The position numbers were made by a program, and so were the translations under genes. Shown piece by piece: positions 3,001 through 53,876 of a DNA stretch of 64,000 nucleotides; position 1 is the first letter of the stretch; each line of letters starts with the position of its first letter. The notes under the pieces were generated by a model, which had not been told where the DNA came from, did not search any database, and saw only the letters and a program-made list of their open reading frames with translations. Source of the DNA: Trachythela sp. YZ-2020 (lineage: Eukaryota > Cnidaria > Anthozoa > Malacalcyonacea > Clavulariidae); contig JADLSH010000182.1 of assembly GCA_016169945.1 (NCBI GenBank), positions 124,001 to 188,000 of the forward strand, read 5' to 3'.

Positions 3001-6000
3001 ACTTCGCTAACTTCATGAAATTGAATAACTTGGTGCACTTCAATTACGTCATGCACTTCTATAACTTGGTACACTTGACAACTTCATGCACTTCTACAAC
3101 TTGGTATACTTCGCTAATTTCATGCACTTCAATAACTTGGTGCACTTCGCTAACTTCATGAACTTCAATAACTTGGTACACTTCTATAACTTTATGCACT
3201 TCTATAACTTGATACACTTGAATAACTTCATGCACTTCTATAACTTGCATGGTGCACTTGGATAACTTCATGCACTTATACAACTTGATACACTTCGTTA
3301 ACGTCATGAAATTCAATAAGTTGGTACACTTCTATAACTTCATGCATTTCTACAACTTGCTACACTTGGGTAACTTCATGCACTTCTACAACTTGGTACT
3401 CTTGGATAACTTCATGAACTTCGATAACTTAATCCACTTCTATAACCTGGTACACTTCGATAACTTAATGCACTTCCACATATTGGTACACTTGGATAGC
3501 TTCGTGCACTTCTACAACTTGGTTCACTTGGATAACTTGATGCACTTCTACAACTTGGTACGCTTGGATAACTTCATGAACTTCGATAACTTAATGCACT
3601 TCTATAACTTGGTACACTTCGATAACTTAATGCACTTCAACATCTTGGTAGACTTGGATAACTTCATGCACCCCAATTATTACTTGGTACGCTTGGATAA
3701 CTTCATGCGCTTCAATAACTTGGTGCACGTCAATAACTTGGTGCACTTCGATAAATTGATCCACTTCGATAACTTGATGCATTTCTACAATTTGGTACAC
3801 TTGGATAACTTGACGTACTTCTGCAGCTTGGTACACTTCAATAACTTCATGCACTACTACAACTTGGTACACTAGGATAACTTGATGCACTTCTACAAGT
3901 TGGTACGCTCGGATAGCTTCATGCACTTCGATAACTTGGTACGCTTGGATAACTTCATGAACTTCGATAACTTAATGCACTTCTATAACTTGGTACACTT
4001 CGATAACTTAATGCACTTCAACATCTTGGTAGACTTGGATAACTTCATGCACCCCAATTATTACTTGGTACGCTTGGATAACTTAATGCGCTTCAATAAC
4101 TTGGTGCACGTCAATAACTTGGTGCACTTCGATAAATTGATCCACTTCGATAATTTGATGCATTTCTACAATTTGGTAAACTTGGATAACTTGACGCACT
4201 TCTACAACTTGGTACACTTCTATAACTTCATGCACTTCTACAACTTGGCATACTTTGCTAATTTCATGCACTTCAATAACTTGGTGCACTTCGCTAACTT
4301 CATGAACTTCAATAACTTGGTACACTTCTATAACTTTATGCACTTCTATAACTTGATACACTTGGATAACTTCATGCACTTCTATAACTTGCATGGTGCA
4401 CTTGGATAACTTCATGCACTTATACAACTTGATACACTTCGTTAACTTCATGAACTTCAATAAGTTGGTGCACTTCTATAACTTCCTGCATTTCTACAAC
4501 TTGGTACCCTTGAATAACTTCATGCGCACTTCTACAACTTGGCACACTTGGATAACTTCATGAACTTCTACAACTTGGTACATTTGGGTAACTTCATTCA
4601 CTTCTACAACTTGGTACACTTGGATAACTTCATGAATTTCGATAGCTTAATCCACTTCTATAACCTGGTACACTTCGATAACTTAATGCACTTCCTCATA
4701 TTGGTACACTTGGATAGCTTCGTGCACTTCTACAACTTGGTTCACTTGGATAACTTGATGCACTTCTACAACTTGGTACGCTTGGATAACTTCATGAACT
4801 TCGACAACTTAATGCACTTCTATAACTTGGTACGCTTCGATAACTTAATGCACTTCAACATCTTGGTAGACTTGGATAACTTCATGCACCCCAATTATTA
4901 CTTGGTACGCTTGGATAACTTCATGCGCTTCAATAACTTGGTGCACGTCAATAACTTGGTGCACTTCGATAAATTGATCCACTTCGATAACTTGATGCAT
5001 TTCAATAACTTCATGCACTTCTATAACTTGGTGCACTTCGCTAACTTCATGAACTTCAATAACTGGTACACTTCTATAACTTCATGCATTTCTATAACTT
5101 GGTAACCTTGAATAACTTAATGCGTACTTCTACAACTTGGCGCACTTGGATAACTTCATGCACTTATACAACTTGGTAAACTTGGATAACTTAATGAACT
5201 TCTACAACATGGTACACTTCGATAACTTAATGCACTTCTACAACTTGCCACACTTGTATAACTTCATGCATTTCAATAACTTGGTGCAATTCTATAACTT
5301 CATGCACTTCTATAACCTGGTACACTTAGATAACTTCATGCACTTCTACAACTTGGTAAACTTGGATAACTTCATGAACTTCAATAACTTGGTGCACTTC
5401 AATTACTTCATGCACTTCTATAACTTGGTACACTTGACAACTTCATGCACTTCTACAGCTTGGTATACTTCGCTAATTTCATGCACTTCAATACCTTGGT
5501 GCACTTCGCTAACTTCATGAACTTCAATAACTCGGTACACTTCTATAACTTTATGCACTTCTATAACTTGATACACTTGGATAAATTAATGCACTTCTAT
5601 AACTTGCATGGACCACTTGGATAAGTTCATGCACTTATACAACTTGATACACTTCGTTAACTTCATGAACTTCCATAACTTGGTACACTTCTATAACTTC
5701 ATGCATTTCTATAATTTGGTACCCTTGAATAACTTCATCCGCACTTCTACAACTTGGCACACTTGAATAACTTCATGCACTTCTACAACATGGTACACTT
5801 GGATAACTTCATGCACTTCTACGACTTGGTACACTTGGATAACTTCATGCACTTCCACAACTTGGTACACTTGGATAACTTCATGAACTTCGATAACTTA
5901 ATCCACTTCTATAACCTGGTACACTTCGATAACTTAATGCACTTCCACATATTGGTACACTTTGATAGCTTCGTGCACATCTACAACTTGGTTCACTTGG

Positions 6001-7622
6001 ATAACTTGATGCACTTCTGCAACTTGGTACGCTTGATAACTTCATCAACTTCGATAACTTAATGCACTTCTATAACTTGGTACACTTCGATAACTTAATG
6101 CATTTCTACATCTTGGTAGACTTGGATAACTTCATGCACCCCAATTATTACTTGGTACGCTTGGATAACTTCATGCGCTTCAATAACTTGGTGCACGTCA
6201 ATAACTTCGTGCACTTCGATAAATTGATGCCCTTCGATAACTGTCTTGATGCACTTCAATAACTTGGTGCACTTCGATAACTTCATGCACTTCTATTACT
6301 TGGTACACTTGGATAACTTCATGCACTTCAATAACTTGATACACTTCTATAACTTCATGCACTTCTATAACTTGGTACACTTGGATAACTTCATGCACTT
6401 CTAGAACTTGGTACGCTTGGATAACTTCATGCGCTTCAATAACTTGGTGCACGTCAATAACTTGGTGCACTTCGATAAATTGATGCACTTCGATACTTGA
6501 TGCACTTCAATAACTTGGTGCACTTCGATAACTTCATGCACTTCAATAACTTGGTAAACTTCGATAACTTCAAGCACTTCTATAACTTGGTGGTACACTT
6601 CGCTAACTTCATGTACTTCAATAACTCGGTACACTTCTATATGGATAACTTCATGCCATTCACTTCTATAACTTGGTGCACTTCGATAACTTCATACACT
6701 TCTACAACTTGGTACACTTGGATAACTTTGCGCACTTCTGCAACTTGATACACTTCGTTAACTTCATGACCTTGAGTAACTTGGTACACTTCTATAACTT
6801 CATGCACTTCTATAACTTCGTACACTTGGATAACTTCATGCACTTCTACAACTTGGCGCATTTGGATAACTTCATACACTTCTACAACTTGGTACGCTTG
6901 GATAACTTCATGAACTGCTACAACTTGGTACACTTGGGTAACTTCATGCACTTCTACAACTTGGTACACTTCTATAACTACATACACTTCTACAACTTGG
7001 TACACTTGGATAACTTCATGCACTTCGATAAGTTAATGTACTTCTACATCTTGGTACACTTGGAGCACTTGATGCACTTCAATAACTTGGTGCCCTTCAA
7101 TAACTTGGTCCCCTTCGATTACTTGATGCACTTCTATAACTTGATGTACTTCTATAACTTGGTGCACTTGAATTTCTTGGCTCACTTCCATAACTTGATG
7201 CACTTCAATAACTTGGTGCACTTCGGTAACTTCATGCACTTCTGTATCTTCGTGCACTTGGACAACTTGGTACACTTCAATAACTTGATACATTTCTATA
7301 ACTTGGTACTCTTCAATAACTTGATGCACTTCTATAACTTGGTGCACTTCGATAACTTGATGCACTTCAATAACTTGTTGCACTTCAATCAATTGGTGCA
7401 CTTCAATAACTTGGTGCACTTCAATCACTTGGTGCACTTCGATAACTTGATGCACTTCTATCACTTCCTGCTCTCGATAATTGGATGCACTTCGATAACT
7501 TCATGCACTTGGATAACTTCATGAACTTCTATAACTTGGTGCACTTGGATAACTTGATGCACTTTTATAACTTAATGCACTTCAATAACTTGGTGCACTT
7601 CAATTATGACTTCATGCGCTTA
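94..7622 (+). repeat. 18-bp minisatellite array 1 (36-bp dimer)
   Basis: A continuous tandem array of about 420 degenerate 18-bp units of the type CACTTCTATAACTTGGTA alternates with CACTTGGATAACTTCATG, so a 36-bp dimer is visible for much of its length. Because 18 is a multiple of three and the unit lacks stops in several frames, long open frames run on both strands. The plus frame reads HFYNLV-HLDNFM and the minus frame EVHQVI-EVYQVI. There are no introns, signal sequence or non-repeat domain, so I treat these frames as by-products of the repeat. Larger blocks recur: a variant reading HPNYYLVRLDN appears near 3.67, 4.05, 4.89 and 6.14 kb. A matching array in opposite orientation lies at 30.7-34.95 kb. 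Confidence 0.95.
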
Positions 7623-7863: not shown

Positions 7864-8798
7864 TTGCATGCAGTTCGGCCTTTATCAGATCTAAAACACT
7901 CGGCTGAGGGTCGATATCTTAAATCAGATAGAGACTTCTCGCGCGGTTTGTATATATTACTTCTATATCCATCATACCATCATACAGAAGACGCAAAAAC
8001 ATTAAAGAAACTTTTAGTGCATCCAGAGACAAACACAATAGTACGAACACTAAGCAATGGGGTTGTGTTAATTGTTCAACAAAATGTAACTTTTGCAACA
8101 AGAAATATATATCCAATCAAGCAAAACACTCGTGGCCAGAAATTCAAATTCGCGCTCGCTGCAAGTTCGTGGGTTTTCGTGCGCTCAGGCGACTCAGACA
8201 GAAAAATTCGTGACATACGCGAGGAAGGCCTTCGCATATCGCAATCACCGTCTTGTTTTGCCGCCTTGTCGCCATGGACTACAGAACACTCCATAATGCA
8301 AGTTCGATGGATGTTATGGCAAGCCAAACAAACGCAGAAGGCAGAAGGTCACTTTGATATATATGAAGTGGAGAAACATGTGGCCAAGCGTTGTGTTTCA
8401 GGGGTAAACTTTTTTGGGATTTTTGCATGTTGACTTTCTATAGCTACTGCATTTGCGTATTTCGTTTTAAATATAAATTCTTAAAACAAACTTATTACAA
8501 CACGTTTTTACCTAGGTTAATCAGTATCTAGTTAAGTGGCTTGGCTGGTCTAGATACGAGGCCTCGTGGGAGGGCGAGGATAATATAAGCGAAGATTATA
8601 TCGAGTAAGTACAACATTTATATCGATCGATTCGCCAGAATTATACTAATAGCATTCGGAATTGTAAGTAGAATTGCAGTCATGAATATGGAGTATAAAC
8701 TGTATATATTTGTTTGACATAGATATTTCAATAACACAAAGCCAGATGACAGCACCATTCTAGAGTCTGCTGCTGAGCTGAGACAGGCAGTAGAATGA
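7864..8798 (+). CDS. Chromodomain protein, C-terminal part, three exons (copy A)
   Basis: The model has exons at 7864-8403 (5' limit uncertain), 8516-8604 and 8723-8798. Donor GTAAAC is at 8404, acceptor CCTAG ends at 8515, donor GTAAGT is at 8605, acceptor ACATAG ends at 8722, and the stop TGA is at 8796. Across the joins the protein reads as a chromodomain: a first strand with FDIYEVEKHV, then QYLVKWLGWSRYEASWEGED with the aromatic-cage tryptophans, then a C-terminal helix ending ELRQAVE. Chromodomains bind methylated lysine on histone tails. The middle exon is 89 nt, phase 0 in and phase 2 out, exactly as in the chromodomain gene at 21.8-22.7 kb, so the two are related. The first ~130 codons of exon 1 match nothing I know and may be non-coding; the true start may lie nearer 8.27 kb or in an unseen exon. 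A RAG1-like exon lies convergently 3 kb downstream. Confidence 0.72.
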
Positions 8799-10426
8799 TA
8801 TTTAAAAGGAAAAGGTCACTTGGCAGTACCCCTCCCTTTTCCCCTCGACGTTTTCCTGTTTTTGGTGTGAAACCAAAACGGTGGTATCTCCTGGGGGAGG
8901 ATTGTTTTCCTGTGCAATATTTCCCTGTAGGCTGGGATAAAGTTAAGGTCGTACATGACCCGGTGTCCAACTTGGATACCCTGCCCGTGTTCGCTCATAT
9001 TTGTCCTGGTCACCTCGGAAATACCATGTACAGTTAAACAGTTAGGCCATCATCCCTTCTCAACGGTGCTACACTGAGAAGATGACATTCAAGGCCTTCA
9101 GGAAAGCTGGTTCAATGTAGTGTGCACCAGATAGCCCATTTTACTATTGATCAGTTAGTGGCTTTGCCAGATAAATATCCACTTGAATTATCCTGGCTGT
9201 GACTTTTCGGCACATTCAATTGAGTTGACAACTCATAAAAAGTTTGGATCGTAAAGCCTTACGCAAATAATCTATCTGCTTTTTATATCTGTGATAAGGA
9301 GAAAAATTGCAGCACATACATTGTGTGAGTTCACTATAGATTCACAAAATATAAATAATTTTTTTTACATTGGGAAAGTACTGAACATGAGTTACATACT
9401 AGGCATCGCTGCCATTTTTTCAAATATTGCACGTTATAGTGCCATATATATCATCTGGTGCACCCTTCTATTGTCCTACTGTAAACAAGGATTTACCGAA
9501 GAGCATAACATTTATTTACTGTGTCAAATTATAAGTAAAACCACCTAAATTGCTTACTGTAAAAAAGCTGTTTAAAAACACTTTGTACTGTTCATTGAAA
9601 ACTGCCAAGCAGCATTTTACTTTTAACTAATATTCTGAAATTGTTGTTCATTGGATACTTGGTCAAGCTCAAAATATACTCAGAAAAAGGGTTTTGAGCC
9701 ACATACAAGGAATGAAACATGAAATTAACCTATAAGCAAGTTTATACATGCCCATAGGCATTAGAAAGTTAAGTTAATGAAACAAGCGTTCGGATAAAAA
9801 GTAAAGTTGTGCAAAGTCTGGTTATCTTCAATTGCATCAGGTCAGGTACAAAGGTCAGCCTCTGAAACGCGTGATAAAGATCAGACACGCGTAGAGTGCC
9901 AGGAAAGTAACAAAGAACCATTGTCAAACACTTCCTCTCTTGTGCATGGGAAAATAGACCAATCAGGTCTCACCGTTTTGTCTGTATATGCTTCCTACTT
10001 GGGTCACAAGACTCATTGTGTCACTTGCAAGCCAAAGCGAAGGACCCTTTGCGGCGAAAAGTTGATTTTTCCACCCATCCCACCGTTCAATGATTTTGCA
10101 CCACTTTATCAGTTTATATAGATATATATACAAAAAAAAATTGTATATAGCGTTTCATTTATATTGTATGGTGGGCTATAATCAAGAATCTCATGGACTG
10201 CAATGGGTGCAGTGTTAACTGAATTATGGAGAGTTTCTAATTAATTATGTTACTTACGTCCACATTCTGTAATGCATACTATAAGGAATTGATTTTGCAA
10301 GTCTGTGTTTTGTAAAAATAAAAATTTTGGTTTTTGGGGATGGAGTACTCCCAAAGGTCACCCTCAACCCATAGACTCACAAATCGATGTACTATACAGT
10401 TAAAATATTAGATTAAAGTAGATCAT
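8799..10426. other. No recognisable gene
   Basis: This is AT-rich sequence with only short open frames that have no codon bias, motif or plausible splice context. I see no terminal repeat here that would close off the chromodomain copy upstream. Confidence 0.5.
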
Positions 10427-11652: not shown

Positions 11653-11823
11653 TTGAGCACTAAACTACTTCAAGTTTCCATATCTTTTTATGAATTTCAC
11701 AACCTTCCAATGTGATATAACCTCTATCAATAACTTCGTTTATTTCTTTGAAGACATCTCTGAAAGAACACTTATAGGTGTCGTAATTCTCAGCTCCTCT
11801 TACAACCGCGAAAGTGTGATTCC
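11653..11823 (-). pseudogene. Orphan exon of a RAG1/Transib-like transposase
   Basis: On the minus strand an acceptor (ATTGTAG, ending at 11824) is followed by GGAATCACAC, the same exon boundary and phase as exon 3 of the RAG1-like gene at 18.9 kb. Translation begins GNHTFAVVRGAENYD, against GNHTVAIIKGHEDYD in that gene. It continues with the same spacing up to an ITLEG segment matching ISVNG. The end has decayed: the expected GGD-containing strand with the second catalytic Asp is not recognisable, and an in-frame TAG comes before the donor GTGAGA at 11652. No neighbouring exon was found, so this is a relic of a second, diverged copy. It converges with the chromodomain gene at 7.9-8.8 kb. Confidence 0.72.
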
Positions 11824-11825
11824 CT

Positions 11826-11925
11826 ACAATAATAAAATGTATGTGCACTACAAATACATGCATGCAGCAACCCCTCGCCACAGCTAAACAATGACAGTTC
11901 CCAACATTATACTAAGATGTTTTAT
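11826..11925 (+). repeat. Short dispersed repeat
   Basis: A stretch containing ACATGCATGCAG followed by CCCTCGCCACAGCTAAACA has weaker relatives near 49.25-49.33 kb and 63.46-63.53 kb. I see no terminal structure; it is probably a fragment of an interspersed repeat. Confidence 0.4.
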
Positions 11926-13702: not shown

Positions 13703-15159
13703 TTAATTGTTGATGTTAAACGTAAACGAACATCCTTGGAAAGTGCCACTTGGAAGAATCGATGCGGGACTCACACCATGTGTTTGAAGGATGTTTGCTT
13801 CATTCCTGCCGAAGTAGATTGTGCTGTTTTCAACAGTTGGACGGCTTTGTACTGGAGATGGAGGAACTGTTGTGGGGATGATCGACGAAGATGAGGTCGC
13901 TGCTGTGCTTTCTTTGCCATGAACAAAAGAGCTGAGCGTTGACGACATGTGTTTGAATTGGTTCAGAGTTGGCCTTTCACAATAACTTTCGATACTTGTG
14001 TCGCTTCTGTGGCCAGTCACCGCTTTAATTTTCCGCGTTTCGACGTTGTTGGACGACAGGATAGTGACCGTAGTGGCTCGAAGCGATTGGTTGGTGTAAT
14101 ACGGCGAGATGCCAGCTCTTTCAGACATATTTCTCAACATGTTGTCAAGAGTGTTATGGCCAATTGCCTTCTGCTCGTACCAAATCGTGGCTTGGTTAGG
14201 GTTAAACTTGGCCGTAAGATCCTTTGGCCGCTGAAACAGATTATCAATCTTTGGGTTAAGATGACTGAGGTACGCTTTGATGTTCTTCACTGGACATCTC
14301 GGCGAATTTGATATGGCGAAAATCTTGCCGTCCGAGTGGTCTTCAGTTCCTTCGATGCCGCCAGTGTGATTCTTGCTGGAAAGTACCGTTCCCGGTTCGT
14401 CTTTGTTGAGCTCGAAATATTCGTCTCCACCACTTGTGATGCAAAGACGTAGCATGGATTTCTTCAGGATACTCTGGTTTTCACGGCCTCGTTTGCCAAA
14501 ATACAGGGAAATATAAAACCAAACTGTTTGCATCAAACCGCGAGGATTACTTGTTTCAGCGCTGGCTAGTTCGCCTTTCTCGAAGAGCTGTTGTACGGCT
14601 TCAGCAGTCAAGGGATTTTTGTGCACTGTTCCAGCAATTTTACCACTGCCTATGAGGTGCTTCAGGTATGCATGTAGTGTTTTATTTGCTTCATTGAACA
14701 CGACGGCGTCACAAATTGAAAATGTTTTATTGTGCGGTTCTGACCGAAGATGGCGATCCAAGGCTGCCCGGATTGACATCAAGCTTGTTTTCTTGTAGTT
14801 TGAGCCATCCTTTTTCCTGGCAGAAACGTAAAACTTTGACAAACATTTGTTCATCTCAGGAATTTCCATGTCCTCGAATATCGTCGCAAACTCGGTTTGT
14901 TGTAAAAACCATTCTGTTTTAAAAAACAGTCAAAAAAGACATGTAAATTTGACTGTGTCGCTCCTAACTGTTTTTACCAGTTTTGAATTGTAAAATAAAT
15001 TGTTAAATATACTTAAAAAAGAGTATTTTTCTTACCTTTAAATAATTTCACACCATATTTTGTTGCCTCCTTTGTTTTCACAGGAATGACAGAGGCTTTT
15101 ATGTTATTAATTTCTGCTTCCGAAATTTTTGCAAATCGATTTTGAGGATTTTCAGCCAT
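13703..15159 (-). CDS. Crypton-type tyrosine recombinase (DUF3504-like)
   Basis: Exon 1 runs 15159-15036 (ATG start; donor GTAAG at 15035) and exon 2 runs 14913-13703 (acceptor AAAACAG). The join is phase 1 and gives 444 residues with no internal stop. The N-terminal part matches the SAM-like DNA-binding region of this family (LSKFYVSARKKDG, then SLMSIRAALDRHL). The catalytic part shows the box I Arg in YFGKRGREN, box II in TNQSLRATT, the following His in TGHRSD and the presumed nucleophilic Tyr in IESYCER. The first residue of box II, normally His in H-x-x-R, is Gln here. The protein would cut and rejoin DNA during integration of its own element. It ends in a Ser/Thr/Pro-rich tail of ~100 residues. 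The intact two-exon frame suggests a young copy, but the Gln makes activity uncertain. Confidence 0.88.
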
Positions 15160-15289: not shown

Positions 15290-15728
15290 AGCTTATTAGC
15301 CACCAATTAACCTCACAGAGTGCTCAACAACACAAGTGAAGGAGCATATATAGCCAAATCTGCAGACATGCATGTTTCGCCGTTCAACGGCTCGTCAGTG
15401 CAGCTTGTAACGCAGTCTAGATGCGAGTGACTTCGTATTTATACACCATACTCTTGCCCTCACCAAGCGCATGTGGTACAATACTCAGACACATGCGCAT
15501 CCAGACATGCGTGAAGTGTCTTGGGGCCAGAGTGCTCAAACGACCACAAGGGAAGTGAGCTTTTGCATTATAGCTTATTAGCCACCAATTAACCTCACAG
15601 AGTGCTCAACAACACAAGTGAAGGAGCATATATAGTCAAGTCTGCAGACATGCATGTTTCGCCGTTCAACGGCTCGTCAGTGCAGCTTGTAACGCAGTCT
15701 AGATGCGAGTGACTTCGTATTTATACAC
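15290..15728 (+). repeat. ~285-bp satellite units, block 2
   Basis: The satellite continues after the Crypton insertion, with CATGCATGTTTCGCC landmarks near 15367 and 15652. It is cut at 15728 by the next element, after TTTATACAC. Confidence 0.88.
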
Positions 15729-16221: not shown

Positions 16222-17176
16222 GTAAGTTATTTAGTATATGATATTATGATTTATTGATTTTTACAACTTTCATGGCCATTTTGTGCCAGCACAGTGGCTG
16301 GCCTTGTTCTGGCAAAAATGGCCAGTCCAAACTCCAAGACAGTCTGTTTTCTGACAGAACAGACACTGTCAGTGTCTGGATACTGTATTTCATGGCCAGA
16401 AATTCGAGACACGCGTTACTGCGCAAGCGCACAATCGGAAAAATATGGCGTCTGACAACAGTATAAAATTATCAGTAATGGTTCATAAAAATGGCAATAG
16501 AAGTCCAATTACAAAATAATTCAAATTTGTTCCGATGACTCGTAGTCATACAGGATCAGAGAGTCACACAAGGCTATATTTGACGTTTTGTTCTTACAAA
16601 AAAACAGGTCCAAACCGAACGAGAAGTTTGGGCATACAATCCGCTATACTGTAGTATACTAACCTTATGAGAATTTGACGAAAATCCCGTATTTCATGAT
16701 ATTTACCGGTCTCTAGCAAGTTACTCAGAATTGCTTTTCCATTTGTTCCGATGACATCGTAGAGTTAAAGTAATAGACGACACAACTGGGCTTCCATTTG
16801 TTAAATTATCAGCGTTTCGACAGGTCCTTTTTGTTCACCAAGAAGCTATGTTTTAAACTCAAAGACAGAACGACTTTGAGAATGTAAATAACGAAGATGA
16901 TACTCAAATGACTTGTCTTTGAACGCAAAATTTTTAGCGATATATTTGTCGGAATTCATCGAGAGATACATCAAATTGAAGCTACGAAACAGAGCTTTTT
17001 CACATGAATCATTTCCAGAGACGGCGATGTTACTGCTCAGCGTAAACAGCATTTGCACATTTACTTCCTGTCTCGTTACCATGGTAATTTAAGACCGCGA
17101 GCAAAATATCGCGCATTGAGGCGCCAAATTGAAATCCTTGTCTTCCTTCTCTGGCATGCAAATTTAATGCAAATTT
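16222..17176. other. Non-coding interior of the element
   Basis: No credible exon is seen between the zinc-finger exon and the transposase. There is a short palindromic patch near 16290-16400 with repeated TGGCCA and GACAGA words. Confidence 0.45.
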
Positions 17177-20100
17177 ATGGAAAATGCCCTGGATGTATAT
17201 TCCAACACCACATTTAAAAAGAATATAGTTGTTGATATAGAGCATTGCCAAAAATTCTGTAAAAGATCCGACGTTAAACCTGAAGAAGTTGCCTTTACGC
17301 TTCACATGTCGTTCGAACAATTAAACAGTCTGCACAAATTTTATGTAAAGCAAACTACATTTACCTACGTACAAATACTGAACGCGTTTATTGGCAAACA
17401 GTATTCTTTGAAGATACTGGAGAACTGTTCAAGAATCGAGGAACGTTTACGTATACATTGTACGAAAGTGGTACAACAACTTGTTGGGAAACACGGGGGA
17501 AGTCGGCAAAGTCTTCTTGTCAAAGTAAAGAGTGTAGCTGTTTTTCATAGCGAACTTAGTACCGTTACCTTGGTGAATGATTTACAAAGCCAAGTATCGC
17601 AGCTTGAAAGTGTAAATGCGTCGATTACTTTAGAAAATAAAATACTGGATGTAAAATGCAAAGAAGCATCAGCACATGTGAGTCAAATGCAGAAGAAAAT
17701 CGAGAAGGCTAATGTTGTTATTGAGAAACATAAAACGGAGAACAACAAATTGTTCAATGTGATTGAAAAAATTACGCCCGAAAGACGATTTGAGGATAAG
17801 GGAAAACATTTTTGGAAGTAGGAAAACGGCAGCAAGATCGTAAACTTCAAACTCTAGAAACAAGAGTCGACCAAGCGCTTTGGTTCTGTGAATCTTTTGG
17901 ACTCCATTTAGATTCTGTTAAATTAGTAGATGACTCTGGGAAAGCTCATAGTTTATCTTTTGGAGCAAAAGGATTGAAATCATATAAAGAACTCCCAGGT
18001 GAAGAACAGCAAGACATCCAACAAGTGTTGTTTATCATGGATAAATTTTGCATTGGTGAAGCCGCATACCATGCGCTAACTTGCTGTCAAGGAGGGGAGG
18101 AACTTCCAAGATCCTACCTAGTAAAGCAGTGCAAGGATGAGCTTAACAAGAATTTCTATATTGAAAGAACTCCCGGGAAAGCAAATGGAGCAGCTCTCAA
18201 TTTTGAAGATGAGTTAACAACAGTACTCAAAGATTTGGTAAGAGCACTCTTGATAATTTATTAATATTAAAATAAAATCAGGAATGGTGGACCCCCATGA
18301 CCATGACCAAATGTTTTCAGTATTTGCCCCCCCCCCCCTCAATTAACCATTTATAAAGTCTTTAATATGACCCAATGGCAGTTTAGGGTCCAACTAAATT
18401 AAAAGAACACAACAATCACAATCTCAACTGGATTGTGAAAGGAATAATAGTATATTGTCAAGAGATTATCAAATATTATATTTCATTGTTTACCGGTATT
18501 GTATTTTCAGATGGAGAAAGATAACAAATTAGGAGAAGTTCCAATTAAAGTGAAGATCAGTGGAGATGGTGCGAAGATGACCAGATTGACAAATTTCATT
18601 GTGATCAGCTTCTCTATTTTGAACCTGGAAGAAACTGTCATGTCTTCAAAAGGTAAAGTTTCTGTTTTAAAATATGAAGTGTCTGATTGGGAAACTGATA
18701 AAATCATCATGAGACTCTCAAGCTATTAATCCAAGTTCTTTTTCACTCATGGAGTTTAGTCCATGAGAGCTAGCCTGGACAACCCAAACTAATGCATTTT
18801 AATTTATATTTTTTACATTCAAGATTTTAAATGTCACAAATTAATTGGGTTTGAGAAAATGACACATTTCATTATTTTTTGCTACACAATTAGGGAATCA
18901 CACTGTGGCTATAATCAAGGGACATGAAGATTATGACCTTTTAAAGACTTCATGTTCAAAAATCTTTAAATGCATCAACAAATTGATAAAGGCAAGAAAG
19001 ATCAGTGTTAACGGAAAGGATGTGGACATTGAATTTTACCTAGGAGGTGACTATAAGGTAAAATTTCAAAATGCATTTAATATAACAAATTAAAAAACTA
19101 TAAAAATGCTCTCCCAAACATCAATTATACATTATTTTTATACAGATTTTAATTCTTAATTTCAGTTCCTGTTGTTGATACTTGGTATGAAAGGGGCTAC
19201 ATCAGACTATGCCTGTATTTGGTGCAAAATATTCAAGTTACAGAGGTGAGCCTTTTGTAGCATGAGTATTGCATTCCATGGGAATCACTTGTTTGCAACA
19301 TTGCTGTCATAAAAGTATACCTGTTGCAACAGGATGTGATTCCCTATGGATTAAAGTTCAAGTAATATCAGCAACAAAATCCCACCAACTTCCAATAAAA
19401 TCTGATCTCAATAGAGGTTACATAAGATGCAATTCTTAGTTGAGTCAGCATTTTGTTGCAAGTTGATGTGATTTTGTTCCCAATATGGTTAGGCTATCTG
19501 TAGATGTTCAAATATATACCAATTTCAACTATATAATGTACAAATTCCAGCCATGTAAGAATTGAATACCAATTTTCAACTCTTGCTATAGATGGGACAT
19601 GACAAAACCTCTAGCTTTTTGGGAAAGTCAGCATGGCAGATCAATTGAGGACATCCAAAATGTGCTTTAGATGGTACATTTTCCTGTCAATTTCAGCCGC
19701 TGCTTGATATAAAGCTGGAAAATGTTGTCATTGACGAACTGCATTTAATGCTTCGTATCACAGGTAATATTAATCATTGTCTAGCTATAATAACCCCCCC
19801 CCCCTCCTACAATTCACTATAATGAGTAAGATGGCAACCATTTTACCATTCAGAATTTAATTTACTTCTCACTATAGCTCACAGTAAATTGACAGGTAAC
19901 CATAATTTTCATCACCAAGCCCCTAGCTAATTAAGTAGTTTGGCATTTTTGTAGATGTGCTGACAAAAGTTTGATCAACGAAGCCCTTGAATGGGATGTG
20001 AAGGAGAACATGTCCAAAGCACCCAAGGACAGGTCAAACAATCACCTAATGGACCTAGTTAATGCCGTCAATGAATGTGGAGTCTCATTCAATGTCTGGG

Positions 20101-21354
20101 AGAAGAAGAATGCTGATGGGCAAGCCAGTGGTATCCATGATTTTACTAGCCTCATGGGCTCAGACAAGAAACTGTTGATGAAGCACCTCCCTGAGAATTT
20201 GAAGGATTGTATTCACCCAAAGCATAAGGATAGTGTTATCAATCTTTGGAAGGTATATTATATTCTACTTATTTATATTGATCAAAGTTAAATTTATTTA
20301 CTGAAAACAAAAAAGAGATATACAAAAAAATCCAATTAAACTTTTTAGAACTTCAGTGAGATTTATCAAATGATAAATGAACCAAGACCTTCTGCTGCTC
20401 TTATTGATGAGATCTTTCAAAAGGTTTGATATCCTCTACTTTTACAAACAGCTGGGCCCATCAGCCTTTAATATAGGTGACATTCCAAACACTAATCTTT
20501 GCCCAATAATCTTTTGTTGCAGAATACTTTGTAAGATTCTTTTCAAAAGTGGCAACATATAATTTTAAAATGTTTTTTTCAACTAGGCTTCCACTTGGAT
20601 TAAGTTATTTGTGTCTCTTGGTGGTAAAGTGGAAGGATGTGGAAAGCCCCGTGTTACACCATATATGCATTGCTTGGTTTACCATGTGCCAAACTTAATG
20701 CTGAAACATGGTGGTATAAAGAAGTTTACTGGTCAAGGTATATTTTTTTGTTTTAAGTATAATATTGCAGGAGTATACTGTAAAATAAAAATATTAAATA
20801 TAACAAAGTATAATAACTCAATGTTGTGTTTCTACTGTTGGTTTCATCCATAATGGAACCTGCCTGATGACTCCATTATAGGATGAAACCAACAGTAATA
20901 ACACAGCATTAAGGTATCATACCTTGTTATTGAATTATTTCATTATTTCATTGAATTCAAAGGGGTTGAGAAGAAGAATGATGTTGTACGCAAATTCCAC
21001 TTAACAAAATCAAATAAGTGGGATGCTACTAAGGATGTCCTGCTTGTTGGAAAACGGTTACAGGTAACGGGTAAACAAGAACGTACAACAAGGGGATACC
21101 AGAAACGAAAAGATGTTTGGTGGCACAAAGATATAAGGGAAACCCGAAGCAAAAAGCGAAGGGAATTGTTATATTCTCCCAATGATCAAGAATCTCAAGA
21201 AAGCAATTCAGATGGCACTGTAGATGTCGAAAGTCTATCTATTGCTGAAATCAAACAAAAGTTGAAAGACTTAAGAGTGCCAACTCGTTTTCGGAAAATT
21301 GAGAAGTTGCGATATATTCTGAAAAAAGCACTTGAAGATAGAACAGATATTTGA
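17177..21354 (+). pseudogene. RAG1/Transib-like DDE transposase, near-complete but disrupted
   Basis: Inferred exons are 17177-18237, 18511-18652, 18894-19057, 19166-19245, 19592-19661, 19697-19763, 19955-20252, 20349-20423, 20587-20737 and 20963-21354 (~830 codons; RAG1 has 1040). Exon 1 holds a coiled coil (about 17575-17790). The RNase H-type core follows: first Asp in SGDGAK (codon 18565), second Asp in LGGDYK (19049), C-x2-C in YACIWC (19214, 19223), H-x4-H in YMHCLVYHVP (20668, 20683) and Glu in GQGVEKKND (20968). D-x18-C-x2-C and H-x4-H-x19-E equal the spacings of RAG1 D708/C727/C730 and H937/H942/E962. A SAP-like domain (about 21232-21340) ends the protein. Lesions are an apparent one-base loss in an A run near 17800, TAG at 19668 with a 35-nt gap too short for a normal intron, and an apparent one-base loss near 19966. 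Role: excision and insertion of the surrounding element. Confidence 0.85.
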
Positions 21355-21389
21355 ATTACTGTAATATTTTAATCACTGCTGGATGGTAG

Positions 21390-21445
21390 CAACCTCGTAC
21401 CCAGGCTCTCACCTCTCTGGAGGTGAGAGCCTGGGTACGAGGTTG
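21390..21445. mobile_element. 56-bp palindromic MITE with the same termini and a 9-bp duplication
   Basis: A nearly perfect palindrome begins CAACCTCGTACCCAGGCTC and ends with its complement. It is flanked by GGATGGTAG on both sides (21381-21389 and 21446-21454). The first 17 bases match the large element's terminus at 16 positions, and the duplication is again 9 bp, so it was probably moved by the same kind of transposase. It sits just downstream of the transposase stop codon. Confidence 0.78.
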
Positions 21446-21758
21446 GGATGGTAGCAGCACTCCTGCCAGAATACATTTTTAACAAAAGGAAATTTTCCCA
21501 CAGGAATTATCAGGAAATTCATTACATGTAAGACTTCTAGTAAAAAATATTTGTCACTTTAAACAACAAATAATAATGAGAGATTATCTATTTTTGGATT
21601 TTGTGGGCAGGAGGAAAATGTTTTATCCAGCACTGACTTAAATATAGGGTTTCAGTTTTTCAAACATTGTAATAATATATATAAATAAATTGGGAACATA
21701 TTTTTATAATAGTACTGTAGTTTTCACATGCATTATTTAATTTAAGTATATATATAAG
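21446..21758. other. AT-rich convergent intergenic region
   Basis: This lies between the 3' ends of the two convergent genes. It contains AATAAA-like words on both strands and nothing coding. Confidence 0.4.
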
Positions 21759-22719
21759 TTAGTTATCATCTAAAGTATTTTCTTGGTTGCATGGGCTTCT
21801 TGCAATTGAGATACATATTTTCTCAATTGGAAACCTCTGTGATTCAACACCGTTTACTGTGTGTGTCTTTGGCGACCATGAAAGTACTGCCTTAGCCTTG
21901 AGAGGAAAATTTATCTTTTTCCCTTCACCTTGTGTGGTCAGGTAGTACCACCAATTAGGTGGAAGCATTTCAAAGCGGTCAAAGTCTCCTTTTTCATAAA
22001 GAATATGACCTCGATGTTCGCATGCTGTCCCCTTTCCTTGCACAACATACCGCCAAATATCATGGTCTATTTCAACCAGACATTTATTTCCAAGCGCTCT
22101 GGATTTCAGCATGGTCAAAATAACACCAGCAAATGCTCTGGTGGCATGCTCCAGTCAGGTGAGGATGGGCTTTGGTGGTCTTTCATAACCCCTAGATAAG
22201 GAACATGAAAATTAGTAGTTGTTAATATAAACCTCCTAATTGTTTCAACTAAATATATTAAATATTTGCACTACTTTTACTTTAACACACTTGCCTGAGT
22301 AACTCATTTGTCAAATTGTCTGATGGTTCCCATGTTGATGCCTGCAAGGGCCATCCTGCCCATTTGATAAGATATAAAACGTCCTAGATGGCAAATGAAA
22401 ATGTATTAAATGAAACATTTTAACGAAGTTGCTGTTTGTCGTTTATAAAGCTATAAATCAAGGGATAAATGCTCACTAAACAGCTATATGAAATTAATAT
22501 TATTATAAAGTAAGGTAATTAACTAATTATCGACTCCTTTTATTTAAGTTATTAACATGTAATACTTACATTTTTCACTTTCTTTCTGCTGATAAGCCTT
22601 TCTACTTGGTAAATCTTTCCTTTTTTCTTTGGTGGAGCACTGTTATACAACACAACTGAGCTAAAATTGTTTAACTCCACATAGTTTGTTAAACGCGTGT
22701 GTGAACGTTTAGCCGCCAT
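21759..22719 (-). pseudogene. Chromodomain protein convergent to the transposase (copy B)
   Basis: Exon 1 runs 22719-22570 (ATG; donor GTAAGT), exon 2 runs 22383-22295 (acceptor ATCTAG) and exon 3 runs 22191-21759. The N-terminus is basic (MAAKRSHTR) and leads to KIYQVERLISRKK, then LYLIKWAGWPLQASTWEPSD, a clear chromodomain with the strand, tryptophan and WEP motifs. Exon 2 is 89 nt, phase 0 to phase 2, as in copy A. Its donor reads CAG/GCAAGT, a likely GC-AG intron. Exon 3 keeps the frame for 12 codons, then has TGA at 22157-22155. The same frame continues ~130 codons with a Trp-rich segment (LPPNWWYYLTTQGEG) and stops at 21759. I infer CGA to TGA decay of an Arg codon. The product would bind methylated histone tails and could steer integration. 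The C-terminal domain is unknown to me. Confidence 0.78.
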
Positions 22720-22813
22720 TTTGAATAATTTTCGTAAATTTCGCGCTTGGCCGCTGTACTGATTTTGGCTCAATGTCTCGTTTTTCTGGCCATGTGACGA
22801 AACACTTGCTCAT

Positions 22814-23020
22814 GTTGTATTGTATTGTATTGTATTGTATTGTATTGTATTGTATTGTATTGTATTGTATTGTATTGTATTGTATTGTATTGTATTGTAT
22901 TGTATTGTATTGTATTGTATTGTATTGTATTGTATTGTATTGTATTGTATTGTATTGTATTGTATTGTATTGTATTGTATTGTATTGTATTGTATTGTAT
23001 TGTATTGTTTGTATTGTATT
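22814..23020 (+). repeat. (TATTG)n pentanucleotide microsatellite
   Basis: About 40 almost perfect copies are present, with one slip near 23008. It lies ~95 bp upstream of the ATG of the minus-strand chromodomain gene. The open frames in it, repeating YCIVL, are artefacts of the repeat. Confidence 0.97.
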
Positions 23021-23314
23021 TTTTTGATAATTTTATTTTATAAGCCAGAGGCAACAGTTTATTAGTAACATGTCCAGTGACTGCAAGAGGGAAACTGTGT
23101 GGTTTGTTAATCACTTCATACAGTTCAAAATATTAAACAATAAATGTCTGGCTTTAATAAAATAATATTCCTATTTTACAACATATTTACAGGCTTTTGT
23201 GCACAGTATATTTTGGAATGTGACAAAATGTGTTGACTGTCTGAGTAATAGTGGGCATTGGTGAGAGGGATATGATCTTAATAATATGTAACTAATATTT
23301 GTGTTTATCTTCAG

Positions 23315-23709
23315 GATCATAGATCAAATATGGTTACGCCGTCTGGTGCTGTTATAACATTACAAGAGCCAACAAGTGAGGGAGCATGTGTTCAGCTTTC
23401 TGGAGACCCTTTTTTGGACATTCTTCAAAATGTGTTTCATCATGACACCTTGAGTGTAACAATGACAATAAAGATACATTAACTGTTATTCCAACAGGAA
23501 GAGGTAAATCTGTTTGCTACTGGATTCCGGGTCTGGCAACTACAGGAGTCACGGTTGTAATAACACCATTATTTGCACTTCTAAATGACCAAGTTTCTAA
23601 ATTGAGGAACTATGGAATTAATATATGCTATGTCACTTAATTATGTCGGCTGAGGAGAGAGACATTACCTTTAATGAACTGACATGTGCATGGGGACACA
23701 GTTGAAGGA
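23315..23709 (+). pseudogene. RecQ-like DNA helicase fragment
   Basis: After the acceptor ATCTTCAG (ending 23314) a frame leads to LDILQNVFHHDT. A second frame then gives KDTLTVIPTGRGKSVCYWIP and TVVITPLFALLNDQVSKLRN, which are helicase motif I (Walker A, TGRGKS) and motif Ia of RecQ-family superfamily 2 helicases. A third frame carries MSAEERDITFNELT, matching the sequence that follows in RecQ. At least two frameshifts occur, and the Q-motif, DEAH box and motifs III-VI are missing. It lies inside the RAG1-like element but could be a captured host or other transposon fragment. Confidence 0.72.
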
Positions 23710-24408: not shown

Positions 24409-24529
24409 GGATGGATAAAGAATGAGTAAATAAACGAGGAAAATGCTTAAACGCATAAAAAACGGGTTGATTTACGCGGATATATTCGATTCTTCACTTA
24501 TCGACATACATTCATCACATATCGGACAT

Positions 24530-24664
24530 TTTCTGCCAGGCGCTACTAATTCCCGTCGCGTCCTCCCCAAGCACCCCCGCGCGCTCGCTCAGCATAACCA
24601 CTGATCTATATAAAACACTGGAATAGTCCTTTTTTTCTCTCTTTTGCGCCTGGGTACGAGGCTG
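24530..24664 (-). repeat. Right terminal inverted repeat of the RAG1-like element
   Basis: This is the reverse complement of the left end. It finishes CGCCTGGGTACGAGGCTG and is followed directly by the second copy of the TTTATACAC target duplication. An extra ~25 bp lies in its outer third. Confidence 0.82.
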
Positions 24665-25235
24665 TTTATACACCATACTCTTGCCCTCACCAAGCGCATG
24701 TGGTACAATACTCAGACACATGCGCATCCAGACATGCGTGAAGTGTCTTGGGGCCAGAGTGCTCAAACGACCACAAGGGAAGTGAGCTTTTACATTATAG
24801 CTTATTAGCCACCAATTAACCTCACAGAGTGCTCAACAACACAAGTGAAGGAGCATATATAGTCAAATCTGCAGACATGCATGTTTCGCCGTTCAACGGC
24901 TCGTCAGTGCAGCTTGTAACGCAGTCTAGATGCGAGTGACTTCGTATTTATACACCATACTCTTGCCCTCACCAAGCGCATGTGGTACAATACTCAGACA
25001 CATGCGCATCCAGACATGCGTGAAGTGCCTTCGGGCCAGAGTGCTCAAACGACCACAAGGGAAGTGAGCTTTTACATTATAGCTTATTAGCCACCAATTA
25101 ACCTCACAGAGTGCTCAACAACACAAGTGAAGGAGCATATATAGTCAAATCTGCAGACATGCATGTTTCGCCGTTCAACGTCTCGTCAGTGCAGCTTGTA
25201 ACGCAGTCTAGATGCGAGTGACTTCGTATTTGACT
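24665..25235 (+). repeat. ~285-bp satellite units, block 3
   Basis: The satellite resumes immediately after the element with TTTATACACCATACTC, the sequence interrupted at 15728. Units follow with landmarks near 24877 and 25162 (period ~285 bp). Confidence 0.88.
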
Positions 25236-29985: not shown

Positions 29986-30667
29986 GTAACACTCTAAAAG
30001 TACACATATAGTTATAACAATAAGAAACGAACTCACTCTGTTTTAGTGTCCCAGAAATAAGATTAGGAGCGACAGCGATTTCCCAGGTTCAGAACAGAGG
30101 GAGCTTGTACATCTGAGGAAAAAAACAATCTCGTACCGAGAGGAAACTACGTCGGCCGTTCTTGAGTAGGTAAACATATATTGTTCGTGACTGTGCCATT
30201 TATCCCGGGCCATCGCAATGCAAGCGGTCCTCTTCAAAGTGCGGGATTTGTATATGGAAATCTGGAAATGAAAACTACACCAGCCGTTCTTTTGCAGGGA
30301 ATAAACAAATATTGTTCACAACTTGACAATTTGTCTCTGATATTGGTGGTTGTACCGCAGCGTGACCCGGCGATCCTCTTGAACTTGTAACATTCCCCAT
30401 GGTCTTCCTGAGGTTCGAGCCAAGACTGGTTATTCTTTCCATCCTGAAGCCTTATAGCTTTTGCTCACAACGTAATTACACATGCTTTTTGTTGGTGTTT
30501 TGTTGTTTTTTTTGTTTTTTGTTTTTTTGTGGTACAAGGTTTGATACCTTGAAACAAACTTTGAAAAATTTCACTAGCACTGTTTACGCATTGAAGGAAA
30601 CCTTGCGAATGAGCAGCACACCCATAAACTGTACCCAAATGCCTTTAGTACAAAATAGTTGGGGACA
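29986..30667. other. No recognisable gene
   Basis: A 183-codon frame runs from 30399 into the minisatellite, but its first part is low-complexity and its second part is repeat, so I reject it as a gene. Confidence 0.45.
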
Positions 30668-33600
30668 AATGCCTTTAGTAGAAGTGCATTACGTTATAGA
30701 AGTGCACCAAGTTATGGAAGGGCATAATGTTATAGAAGTGCATCAAGTTAACGAACTGCACCAAGTTATAGAAGTGCATGAAGTTATAGAAGTGTACCAA
30801 GTTATTGAAGAGCATGAAGTTATCAAAGTGCACCAAGATATCCAAGCGTACCAAGTTGTAGAAGTTCATGAAGTTATCCAAGTGTACCAAGTTATAGAAG
30901 TGCATCAAGTTATTGAAGTGCAACAAGTCATCCTAGTGTACCAATTGTAGAAGTGCATGAAGTTAGCGAAGTGTACCAAGGTATAGAAGTGCATCAAGTT
31001 ATTGAAGTGCACTAAGTTATCCAAGTGTACCAAGTTGGAGAAGTGCACGAAGTTATTCAAGTATACCAAGTTGTAGAAGCGCATGAAGTTATAGAAGTGT
31101 ACCAAGAAATTCAAGTGCACCAAGTTGTCGAAGCGCACCAAGTTATTGAAGTGCACTAAGTTATTGAAGTGAATGAAGTTATTGTAGTGCTGAAGTTATA
31201 GAAGTGTACCAATAAATTCAAGTGCACCAAGTTGTCGAAGTGCACCAAGTTATAGAAGGGCATAATGTTATAGAAGTGCATCAAGTTATCGAACTGCACC
31301 AAGTTATAGAAGTGCATGAAGTTATAGAAGTGTACCAAGTTATTGAAGTGCATGAAGTTATCAAAGTGAACCAAGTTATTGAAGTGCACCAAGTTGTTGA
31401 AATGCATGAAGATATCCAAGCTTACCAAATTGTAGAAGTTCATGAAGTTTTCCAAGTGTACCAAGTTATTGAAGTGCACCAAGTTATTGAAGTGCACCAA
31501 GTTGTTGAAATGTATGAAGTTATCCAAGTGTACAAAGTTACAGAAGTGCATGAAGTTATCCAAGTGTACCAAGTTATTGAAGTGTTGAAGTTATAGAAGT
31601 GTACCAAGAAATTCGAGTGCACTAAGTTGTCGAAGTGCACCAAGTTATTGAAGTGCTCCAAATTATTGAAGTGCGTGAAGTTATCCAAGTGTACCAAGTT
31701 ATTGAAGTGCACCAAATTATTGAAGTGCATGAAGATATCCAAGTGTACCAGGATGTAGATGTTCATGAAGTTACCCAAGTGTACCAAGTTATAGAAGTGC
31801 ATGAAGTTATAGAAGTGTACCCATTTATTGAAGTGCATGAAGTTATCAAAGTGCACCAAGTTATTGAAGTTTATGAAGTTATCCAAATGTACCAAGAAAT
31901 TGGCGTGCATGAAGTTATCCAAGTGCCCCAAGTTGTAGAAGTGCATGGAGTTATCCAAATGTACCAAGAAATTGGCGTGCATGAAGTTATCCAAGTTAAC
32001 CAAGTTGTCGAAATGCATCAAGTTATTGAAGTGCATCAAGTTATCCAAGAGAACCAAGTTGTAGAAATGCATGAAGTTAGCGAAGTGTACCAAGTTATAA
32101 AGTGCATTAAGTTTTCCAAGTGTTCGAAGTTGTAGGAGTGTATCAAATCATCCAAGTGCACCATGCAAAGTTGTAGAAGTGCATTACGTTATCGAAGTGC
32201 ACCAAGTTATAAAAGGGCATAATGTTATAGAATTGCATCAAGTTATCGAACTGCACCAAGTTATAGAAGTGCATGAAGTTATAGAAGTGTACCAAGTTAT
32301 TGAAGAGCATGAAGTTATCAAAGTGCACCAAGATATCCAATCGTACCAAGTTGTAGAAGTTCATGAAGTTATCCAAGTGTACCAAGTTATAGAAGTGCAT
32401 CAAGTTATTGAAGTGCAACAAGTTGTTGAAATGCATGAAGATATCCAAGCGTACCAAGTTGTTGAAGTTCATGAAGTTTTCCAAGTGTACCAAGTTATTG
32501 AAGTGCTGAAGTTATAGAAGCGTACCAAGAAATTCAAGTGCACTAAGTTGTCGAAGTGCACCAAGTTATTGAAGTGCTCCAAATTATTGAAGTGCGTGAA
32601 GTTATCCAAGTGTACCAAGTTATTGAAGTGCACCAAATTATTGAAGTGCATGAAGATATCCAAGTGTACCAAGATGTAGATGTTCATGAAGTTACCCAAG
32701 TGTACCAAGTTATAGAAGTGCATGAAGTTATTGAAGGGCATCAAGTTATCGAAGTGCACCAAGTTATAGAAGTGCATGAAGTTATAGAAGTGTACCCAGT
32801 TATTGAAGTGCATGAAGTTATCAAAGTGCACCAACTTATTGAAGTTTATGAAGTTATCCAAATGTACCAAGAAATTGGCGTGCATGAAGTTATCCAAGTG
32901 CACCAAGTTGTAGAAGTGCATGAAGTAATCCAAATGTACCACGAAATTGGCGTGCATGAAGTTATCCAAGTTAACCAAGTTGTCGAAGTGCATCAAGTTA
33001 TTGAAGTGCATCAAGTTATCCAAGAGTACCAAGTTGTAGAAATGCATGAAGTTAGCGAAGTGTACCAAGTTATAAAGTGCATTAAGTTTTCCAAGTGTTC
33101 GAAGTTGTAGGAGTGCATCAAATCATCCAAGTGCACCATGCAAAGTTGTACAAGTGCATTACGTTATCGAAGTGCACCAAGTTATAAAAGGGCATAATGT
33201 TATAGAATTGCATCAAGTTATCCAACTGCACCAAGTTATAGAAGTGCATGAAGTTATAGAAGTGTACCAAGTTATTGAAGAGCATGAAGTTATCAAAGTG
33301 CACCAAGATATCCAAGCGTACCAAGTTGTAGAAGTTCATGAAGTTATCCAAGTGTACCAAGTTATAGAAGTGCATCAAGTTATTGAAGTGCAACAAGTCA
33401 TCCTAGTGTACCAATTGTAGAAGTGCATGAAGTTAGCGAAGTGTACCAAGGTATAGAAGTGCATCAAGTTATTGAAGTGCATTAAGTTATCCAAGTGTAC
33501 CAAGTTGTAGAAGTGCACGAAGTTATTCAAGTATACCAAGTTGTAGAATTGCATGAAGTTATACAAGTGTACCAAGTAAGAGAAGTGCAAGAAGTTATCC

Positions 33601-34955
33601 AAGTGTACCAAGTTATTGTAGTGCTGAAGTAATGGAAGTGTACCAAGAAATTCAAGTGCACCAAGTTGTCGAAGTGCACCAAGTTATTGAAGTGCACTAA
33701 GTTATTGAAGTAAATGAAGTTATTGTAGTGCTGAAGTTATAGAAGTGCACCAATAAATTCAAGTGCACTAAGTTGTCGAAGTGCACCAAGTTATTGAAGT
33801 GCTCCAAATTATTGAAGTGCGTGAAGTTATCCAAGTGTACCAAGTTATTGAAGTGCACCAAATTATTGAAGTGCATGAAGATATCCAAGTGTACCAGGAT
33901 GTAGATGTTCATGAAGTTACCCAAGTGTACCAAGTTATAGAAGTGCATGAAGTTTTTGAAGTGCATCAAGTTATCGAAGTGCACCAAATTATAGAAGTGC
34001 ATGAAGTTATAGAAGTGTACCCAGTTATTGAAGTGCATGAAGTTATCAAAGTGCACCAAGTTATTGAAGTGCACCAAGTTATTGAAGTGCATGAAGTTAT
34101 CCAAATGTACCAAGAAAATAGCGTGCATGAAGTTATCCAAGTGTACCAAGTTGTAGAAGTGCATGAAGTTATCCAAATGTACCAAGAAATTGGCGTGCAT
34201 GAAGTTATCCAAGTGTACCAAGATGTAGAAGTGCATTAAGTTATCGAAGTATACCTAGATGTAGAAATGCATTAAGTTATCGAAGTGCATGAATTTATCC
34301 AAGTGTACCAAGTTGTTGAAGTGCATGAAGTTATTTACATATACCAAGATTTTGGCGTGCATGAAGTTATCCAAGTGTACCAAGATGTTGAAGTGCATTA
34401 AGTTATCGAAGTATACCAAGATGTAGAAATGCATTAAGTTATCGAAGTGCATGAAGTTATCCAAGTGTACCAAGTTGTAGAAGTGCATAAAGTTATCGAG
34501 GTTTACCAAGTTATAGAAGTGCATGAAGTTATCGAAGTGCACCAAGTTATCGAAGTGCATGAAGTTATCCAAGTATGCCAAGTTCTAGAAGTGCAAGAAG
34601 TTATCCAAGTGTACCAAGTTATAAAAGTGCATTAAGTTATCCAAATGAACCAAGTTGTAGAAGTGCATCAAGTCATCCCAGTGTACCAAGTTGTACAAGT
34701 GCATTACGTTATCGACGTGCACTAAGTTATAGAAGTGCAGGATGTTATAGAAGTGCATCAAGTTATCGAAGTGCACCAAGTTATAGAAGTGCATGAAGTT
34801 ATAGAAGTGTACCAAGTTATTGAAGTGCATGAAGTTATCAAAGCGCACCAAGTTATTGAAGTGCACCAAGTTATTGAAGTGCATTAAGTTATCCAAGTGT
34901 ACCAAGTTGTAGAGGTGACGAAGTTATTCAAGCGTACCAAGTTGTAGAAATGGAT
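30668..34955 (-). repeat. 18-bp minisatellite array 2, inverted relative to array 1
   Basis: About 238 units of TACCAAGTTATAGAAGTG type, the exact complement of the unit at 94-7622, in 36-bp dimers. Open frames again cover both strands. Blocks recur at a larger scale: a run translating as VIEVLQIIEVREVIQVYQ begins near 31647, 32568 and 33793, i.e. at spacings of 921 and 1225 bp, so long blocks were duplicated after the 18-bp array formed. It ends abruptly in unique sequence at about 34955. Confidence 0.95.
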
Positions 34956-53864: not shown

Positions 53865-53876
53865 TGTCCGTCAATT

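Follow-up and report, generated by a model that had tools for sequence, protein, structure and literature searches.

The analysed window, a 64,000-bp stretch of contig JADLSH010000182.1 (positions 124,001 to 188,000 of the forward strand; assembly GCA_016169945.1) of the anthozoan Trachythela sp. YZ-2020, contains a 6404-bp transposon copy at coordinates 16391..22794 of the window, with no strand assigned to the element as a whole. It is very probably a cut-and-paste transposon of the CMCT clade, in which short inverted ends enclose two convergent genes, one encoding a transposase of predicted RAG1 fold and the other a chromodomain partner. It belongs to a large family in the host genome, whose sibling copies have common ends, whose two genes are paired in convergent orientation, and whose transposases conserve eight residues of the catalytic core.

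The element has been mobile in the past, since near-identical copies of it sit in unrelated flanks. Four other contigs carry copies, one of which was matched in two pieces, that are 99.5-99.9% identical to it over 16391-22794, where the homology ends, and comparison of the window with the four contigs showed that the flanking DNA of the five copies is unrelated. The ends form a 21-bp inverted repeat (CATGGCCAGAAA..TTTCTGGCCATG): the left repeat CATGGCCAGAAATTCGAGACA (16391..16411, plus strand) is complementary at 19 of 21 positions to the right repeat (22774..22794, minus strand), both are found in all five copies, and a match of this quality was equalled by none of 300 shuffles in either of two tests. 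All five copies read CATG..CATG at their ends, which represents either the terminus or a duplication, not both; CATG may be the 4-bp target duplication of the window subfamily, in which case the element proper would extend from 16395 to 22790. A second subfamily ends in GCTAGAAATC..GATTTCTAGC, and one of its two copies has CATG on both sides.

The left end is spanned by a stretch (16268-16398) with two direct copies of TTTCATGGCCA; the roughly 110 bp between them, which include short palindromes and a CACAGTG motif, may be a small insertion. The CACAGTG near 16290 was considered as a RAG-type signal and rejected, as it lies outside the ends common to the copies. The right end is adjoined by an array of the pentanucleotide TTGTA (22815-23010).

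The host assembly that was searched comprises 578 Mb in 396 contigs. A 161-bp probe from the third transposase exon has five identical copies in it (100% identity at four places other than the window), and a protein search yielded at least 123 transposase matches, which merge into 85 loci, fragments included, when matches on the same strand with gaps of up to 3 kb are joined. Nine transposase loci possess stop-free frames of 785 to 852 codons. No relative was found by protein scan in viral contigs, where residue patterns gave 22 loci (best tblastn E 0.41), or in the contigs of prokaryote genomes.

A chromodomain gene is located within 8 kb of the transposase at 49 of the 85 loci, as counted from at least 123 transposase matches and 150 of the 166 partner matches. 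Among the matches listed, all 49 partners are convergent with the transposase, none being on the same strand and none divergent, and approximately 0.26 neighbours of any orientation are expected within this distance. Only five of the 49 convergent pairs represent the window's own subfamily. When 30 family loci were inspected, the partner was found beside the transposase at 18 of the 25 that fall outside this subfamily (tblastn, weakest E 0.024), these 18 including several near-identical copies of each other. In diverged loci the chromodomain is split at the same place and the C-terminal domain of the protein is the same. A literature search over titles and abstract openings, with Repbase reports outside its scope, returned no description of a chromodomain gene paired with RAG1, Transib, RAGL, Chapaev or a DNA transposon.

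The transposase gene of the window copy is located on the plus strand and encodes, once spliced, a protein of 835 residues. Exon 1 (17177..18237) covers the N-terminal part with a coiled-coil-like stretch, contains a frame break near 17800, and matches the N-termini of several relatives (e.g. L045, L046 and L062). The catalytic core starts with exon 2 (18511..18652), which holds the first catalytic Asp at 18565 (SGDGAK), followed by exon 3 (18894..19057) with the second catalytic Asp at 19049 (LGGDYK), exon 4 (19166..19245) with a C-x2-C motif at 19214 and 19223, exon 5 (19592..19664), exon 6 (19697..19763) with the motif IDELH, whose His at 19742 occupies the position of RAG1 H795, exon 7 (19955..20252), which has a frame break at its start (19955), exon 8 (20349..20423), exon 9 (20587..20737) with an H-x4-H motif at 20668 and 20683, and exon 10 (20963..21354) with the catalytic Glu at 20968 (GVEKKND) and a SAP-like C-terminus. 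An initial reading of the window made from the sequence alone (hereafter the sequence-only reading) had proposed a split into about ten exons. This is borne out by GT-AG borders at eight of the nine introns, and is qualified by the intron between exons 5 and 6, which is doubtful: exon 5 runs into an in-frame stop, unless it is followed by a GT-AG intron that would, at about 35 bases, be implausibly short. Together with the two frame breaks, this means that the copy is broken and probably no longer autonomous. Pfam SAP scored E 0.11 on the C-terminus (21220-21354) and HeH 0.083 on that of L044, neither being significant, and L046 has a SAP/HeH-like tail by eye; these sequence resemblances suggest that some family members carry an extra DNA-binding tail.

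The chromodomain gene begins 75 bases inside the right end of the element, on the minus strand and thus opposite to the transposase. Exon 1 (22570..22719) contains the start codon and the first half of the chromodomain, and exon 2 (22291..22383, end approximate) the second half (IKWAGW...TWEP); the joined exons match Pfam Chromo with an E-value of 2.9e-12, and the nearest solved structures of the chromodomain are LHP1, CBX and HP1. Exon 3 (21762..22190, start approximate) encodes a conserved C-terminal domain, for which no family match was found in Pfam or PDB. Early in this exon the window copy has a single in-frame stop, at a place that is open in three of its siblings; the C82 copy gave two matches, one of them with a stop. 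At the positions that we take to form the aromatic cage, eight diverged partners have Y or F in 8/8, W in 8/8, and W or Y in 7/8 cases. Judged by these sequence features, the partner is a probable chromatin-reading protein.

On the spliced core, from the Asp of SGDGAK to the Glu of GVEKKND, the local spacing proposed by the sequence-only reading is indeed that of RAG1: second Asp to first Cys 19 residues in both, Cys to Cys 3, His to His 5, and His to Glu 20. The gap between the two Asp residues, described there as shorter than in RAG1, measures 81 versus 108, and the other long distances are 48 versus 65 from the second Cys to the LH His, and 159 versus 142 from there to the first His of H-x4-H. 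The His of the IDxLH motif, which corresponds in position to RAG1 H795, is a landmark beyond those originally named. When the window was aligned with mouse RAG1, both Needleman and MAFFT matched seven of the eight landmarks to an identical residue, D600 being off by one; the best coincidence among shuffles was six landmarks, reached once in 2000, and five among 300 for MAFFT. The local alignment score between the window and mouse RAG1 was 74, compared with a shuffle maximum of 66. None of the eight residues varies among the 13 cores compared (the window and 12 of 14 relatives, L062 and L063 being left out of the alignment because the end motif is absent from their frames), a count to be read with the first Asp and the Glu having belonged to the pattern by which the cores were cut.

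This ordered set of three catalytic acids with C(2)C, LH and H(3-4)H, which all 13 cores including that of the window possess, is not specific for RAG1. The eight residues are reported to be common to EnSpm, Mirage, Chapaev, Transib and RAG1 (PMC12730594; PMC4079192), and C(2)C, LH and H(4)H are given as marks of Chapaev (PMC4079192). The motif set therefore supports the CMCT clade and not RAG1 in particular, since the whole clade is reported to carry it; what the sequence-only reading took for a RAG1/Transib signature is real in its residues and local spacing, but extends across the clade.

A likeness to RAG1 is also indicated by the predicted fold. In a predicted model of one relative, which has an RNase H core of RAG1/Transib type, fold comparison placed RAG1, BbRAG1L and HzTransib in the first 44 positions, and any other transposase followed far behind among the structures listed, which did not include CACTA, Mirage or Chapaev. 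Core identity in these alignments was 14-17%, and the model aligned with RAG1 residues 460-1007, which we take to comprise the DNA-binding and dimerisation region, the RNase H and zinc regions, and the C-terminal domain. The transposase is thus predicted to fold like the RAG1 core.

Profile searches point the same way at a lower level. Pieces of the window's core and end gave weak RAG1 matches in Pfam (E 0.002 to 0.052), the best score for PF12940 being 16.7 bits versus a cut-off of 25, and RAG1 was also found in the C-terminal segments of two of five relatives (0.011 and 0.037). With the H-H-E part, Pfam returned RAG1 alone, and RAG1 accounted for 11 of 14 (E 0.35 to 1.2) and 15 of 15 (0.039 to 0.29) matches in PDB searches; as a scale, RAG1 against HzTransib reaches E 0.0036 to 0.01 in the same kind of search. 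Pair scores were z 8.1 for the window and RAG1, 10.3 for RAG1 and HzTransib, and 0.7, at chance level, for HzTransib and the window. When RAG1 was run against the unspliced frames of the window, the exon 9 frame came second (E 0.79) behind an unrelated frame (0.078), and it dropped to ninth when RAG1 and HzTransib were queried together; the RAG1 signal hence needs the spliced product, because unspliced frames do not stand out. A profile of the family scored RAG1 at 16.4 bits versus 8.2 for the best of 2000 shuffled RAG1 sequences, and against PDB it gave 17 of 20 matches in the coiled coil and three to RAG1 (E 0.06-0.17), the sole family matched outside it. Adding the window row to RAG1 brought no gain in finding HzTransib (16.8 bits versus 19.1 with RAG1 alone), while shuffled rows gave a mean of 5.4 and a maximum of 16.2 (60 shuffles). 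The proposal that the gene encodes a non-vertebrate relative of RAG1 is therefore upheld as far as a RAG1-type core is concerned, by fold comparison and PDB profile, but membership in RAG1/Transib was not reached; the core was not placed clearly in any other DDE superfamily either, nor was a clear placement obtained at all.

Several results weigh against the interpretation of the element as a paired CMCT transposon with a RAG1-fold enzyme. The whole 835-residue protein gave no RAG1 match in Pfam at E up to 10, nor did the whole frames of ten relatives match RAG1, DUF1280 or any named transposase family below E 1 (for L036, among the best 25 matches). The family profile did not find HzTransib (-1.5 bits), which in hhalign did not rise above the shuffle level either (23.7 versus 23.2), and the reversed core scored 57 on the part from the second Asp to the end, above the maximum of 54 among its own 200 shuffles, so that this score test is not entirely clean. 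At the ends, no duplication exists outside CATG in any of the five copies, CATG is confined to the right side in the other of the two copies of the second subfamily, and it is missing from both ends in a third subfamily (L034, L035); one joined-flank query found no empty site and matched two filled-site flanks and partial repeats. On the side of the partner, no chromodomain gene is listed within 8 kb of the transposase at 36 of the 85 loci, which may have lost it or may carry one too diverged for listing, and the C-terminal domain folded alone gave an unusable model (pLDDT 34).

Membership in the CMCT clade is well supported. The clade is described as having 5'-CA..TG-3' termini and a 2-5 bp target duplication, of which the CATG..CATG of the five copies can represent one but not both. 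For Chapaev, Transib and RAGL, a defining feature is in each case absent or doubtful. DUF1280 genes are reported from cnidarians, Hydra among them, two species of which have 13 and 31 (PMC7642931). The element may belong to the Chapaev superfamily proper, as a Chapaev transposon that acquired a chromodomain gene, a possibility that we take seriously without expecting it to hold. DUF1280, the domain of Chapaev transposases, which are placed in a clade with RAG1 (PMC3985635), was weakly matched by the first-Asp region of the window (E 0.017-0.052) and of two of five relatives (0.037 and 0.056); the C(2)C, LH and H(4)H marks agree, and a 4-bp duplication would fit. However, DUF1280 (PF06918) reached only 13-15 bits versus a 25-bit cut-off and was absent from the other three relatives and, at E up to 10, from longer window queries, and Chapaev ends are reported as CAC..GTG (PMC4079192), whereas the element ends in CATG/GCCAG. 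A DUF1280 search of the whole genome at E up to 0.001 gave no match, which carries no weight as the controls were equally silent. It is rather unlikely that we are dealing with a true RAG1-like or Transib element inside the RAG1-Transib branch, in which the chromodomain gene replaced RAG2L. The predicted fold ranks RAG1 ahead of Transib and the rest, and the H-H-E matches and the window-RAG1 pair score would agree with this, but the ranking cannot separate this branch from CACTA, Mirage and Chapaev, the score between HzTransib and the window is that of chance, none of the five copies has a CAC end or a 5-bp duplication, and the partner is not a kelch protein. Moreover, a genuine Transib is separately present in the genome: a single Transib-like match to a piece of HzTransib (G000:C186:54467-54970, locus L075), 47% identical and with one stop.

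The roughly nine introns in the transposase of the window subfamily might indicate a domesticated host gene pair instead of a transposon, which we regard as very improbable in view of the near-identical copies on five contigs with common ends and unrelated flanks, and of about 85 loci, many with long uninterrupted frames. Even less credible is that the chromodomain gene is an unrelated neighbour, left for instance by a chromovirus retrotransposon; chromodomains are known from retrotransposon integrases, but this partner is part of the mobile unit in five copies, points towards the transposase in each of the 49 pairs, and keeps its chromodomain split and C-terminal domain in diverged loci.

In the transposon that we favour, the transposase would dimerise on the inverted ends, cleave them by means of metal ions bound to the D-D-E residues, and join the cut ends to a new site, perhaps CATG with a 4-bp duplication. 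The chromodomain of the partner, by analogy with its family, would bind methylated histone tails, and the partner may steer the transposase to certain chromatin, or hold or license it there, through contact between the two proteins. RAG1 cuts antibody genes, and RAG1 and RAG2 are thought to derive from a transposon with two convergent genes; the PHD finger of RAG2 is a histone reader. What a cutting enzyme gains from the company of a chromatin reader is an unsettled question, for which the family in the window offers an outgroup: it is large, apparently recently mobile, and combines, in this same layout, a RAG1-type enzyme with a probable chromatin reader of an unrelated kind. As a tentative proposal, to which we give less than even credence, the element could represent a sister lineage of RAG1/Transib, whose transposase has long been partnered with a convergent histone reader (a chromodomain here, a PHD finger in RAG2); the gene arrangement at the RAG locus would then either be ancient in the clade or have evolved twice under the same pressure for chromatin-guided cutting. 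Several copies with long frames can be tested, which offers a way to learn how general reader-guided cutting is among CMCT elements.

The window also contains the relic of a second, diverged element. A transposase exon 3 (11660..11827, minus strand; tblastn E 1e-5, 41% identity) has its splice acceptor at the same position as in the first copy, and two chromodomain exons (8359..8605, plus strand; Pfam Chromo 9.8e-10 on the two joined pieces) have their intron at the same place and in the same phase. A segment resembling the C-terminus of the chromodomain protein (LSWSP; 8962..9102, plus strand) is weakly matched (tblastn E 0.012-0.022), its order and strand being those expected. The layout is convergent as in the first element, and the intron positions that can be read agree.

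Other features of the window include a 408-codon open frame for a Crypton-like tyrosine recombinase (13703-14929, minus strand; Pfam DUF3504 5e-11, Phage_integrase 2.7e-6), located between repeats related to 15417-15605 and 24518-25114, and a DEAD/DEAH helicase fragment (23285-23640, plus strand; Pfam DEAD 1.1e-6 on two joined frames, the first residues of the query being approximate), which is RecQ-like by eye. LINE-type reverse transcriptase frames are present at 53815-55744 (plus strand), with what we take to be their YADD motif, and long repeats encoding HFYNLVHLDN-like peptides at 226-7600 (plus strand) and 30366-34923 (minus strand).

Among known systems, Transib, represented by HzTransib, shows no sequence match to the window family in either direction, its 5-bp target duplication is absent from the five copies, and to our knowledge the Transib elements described so far encode no convergent partner. 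Similar unnamed proteins with VTPYxH and QGxEKxND motifs presumably exist in fish, molluscs and other cnidarians. With Chapaev and the CMC elements the family has in common the C(2)C, LH, H(4)H and DDE residues, the weak DUF1280 signal and possibly the 4-bp duplication; the literature search described above found no Chapaev element paired with a chromodomain gene. ESTA and other fungal CMCT elements carrying TET/JBP genes are reported to combine a transposase that is RAG1-like by HHpred with an accessory gene acting on chromatin marks (PMC12730594), the latter being a dioxygenase of methylcytosine and not a histone reader. In organisation there is a parallel with RAG1-RAG2 and the RAGL elements (ProtoRAG), which have a DDE/zinc core of the same predicted fold and, like the element in the window, two convergent genes inside inverted repeats (PMC7204232). 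In the same source, RAG2 is described as carrying a PHD finger, the RAGL partner as having kelch repeats, the RAGL terminal inverted repeats as starting with CAC and being flanked by a 5-bp target duplication, and the RAGL transposase as ending in a Cx2Cx3GHx4C (CCGHC) tail; in contrast, the window partner matches Pfam Chromo and has no kelch repeats, neither terminal feature occurs in the five copies, and the tail was not seen by eye in the C-termini of the window or its relatives. With no sign of common descent of the partners, the parallel to RAG1-RAG2 is one of layout, and perhaps of logic.

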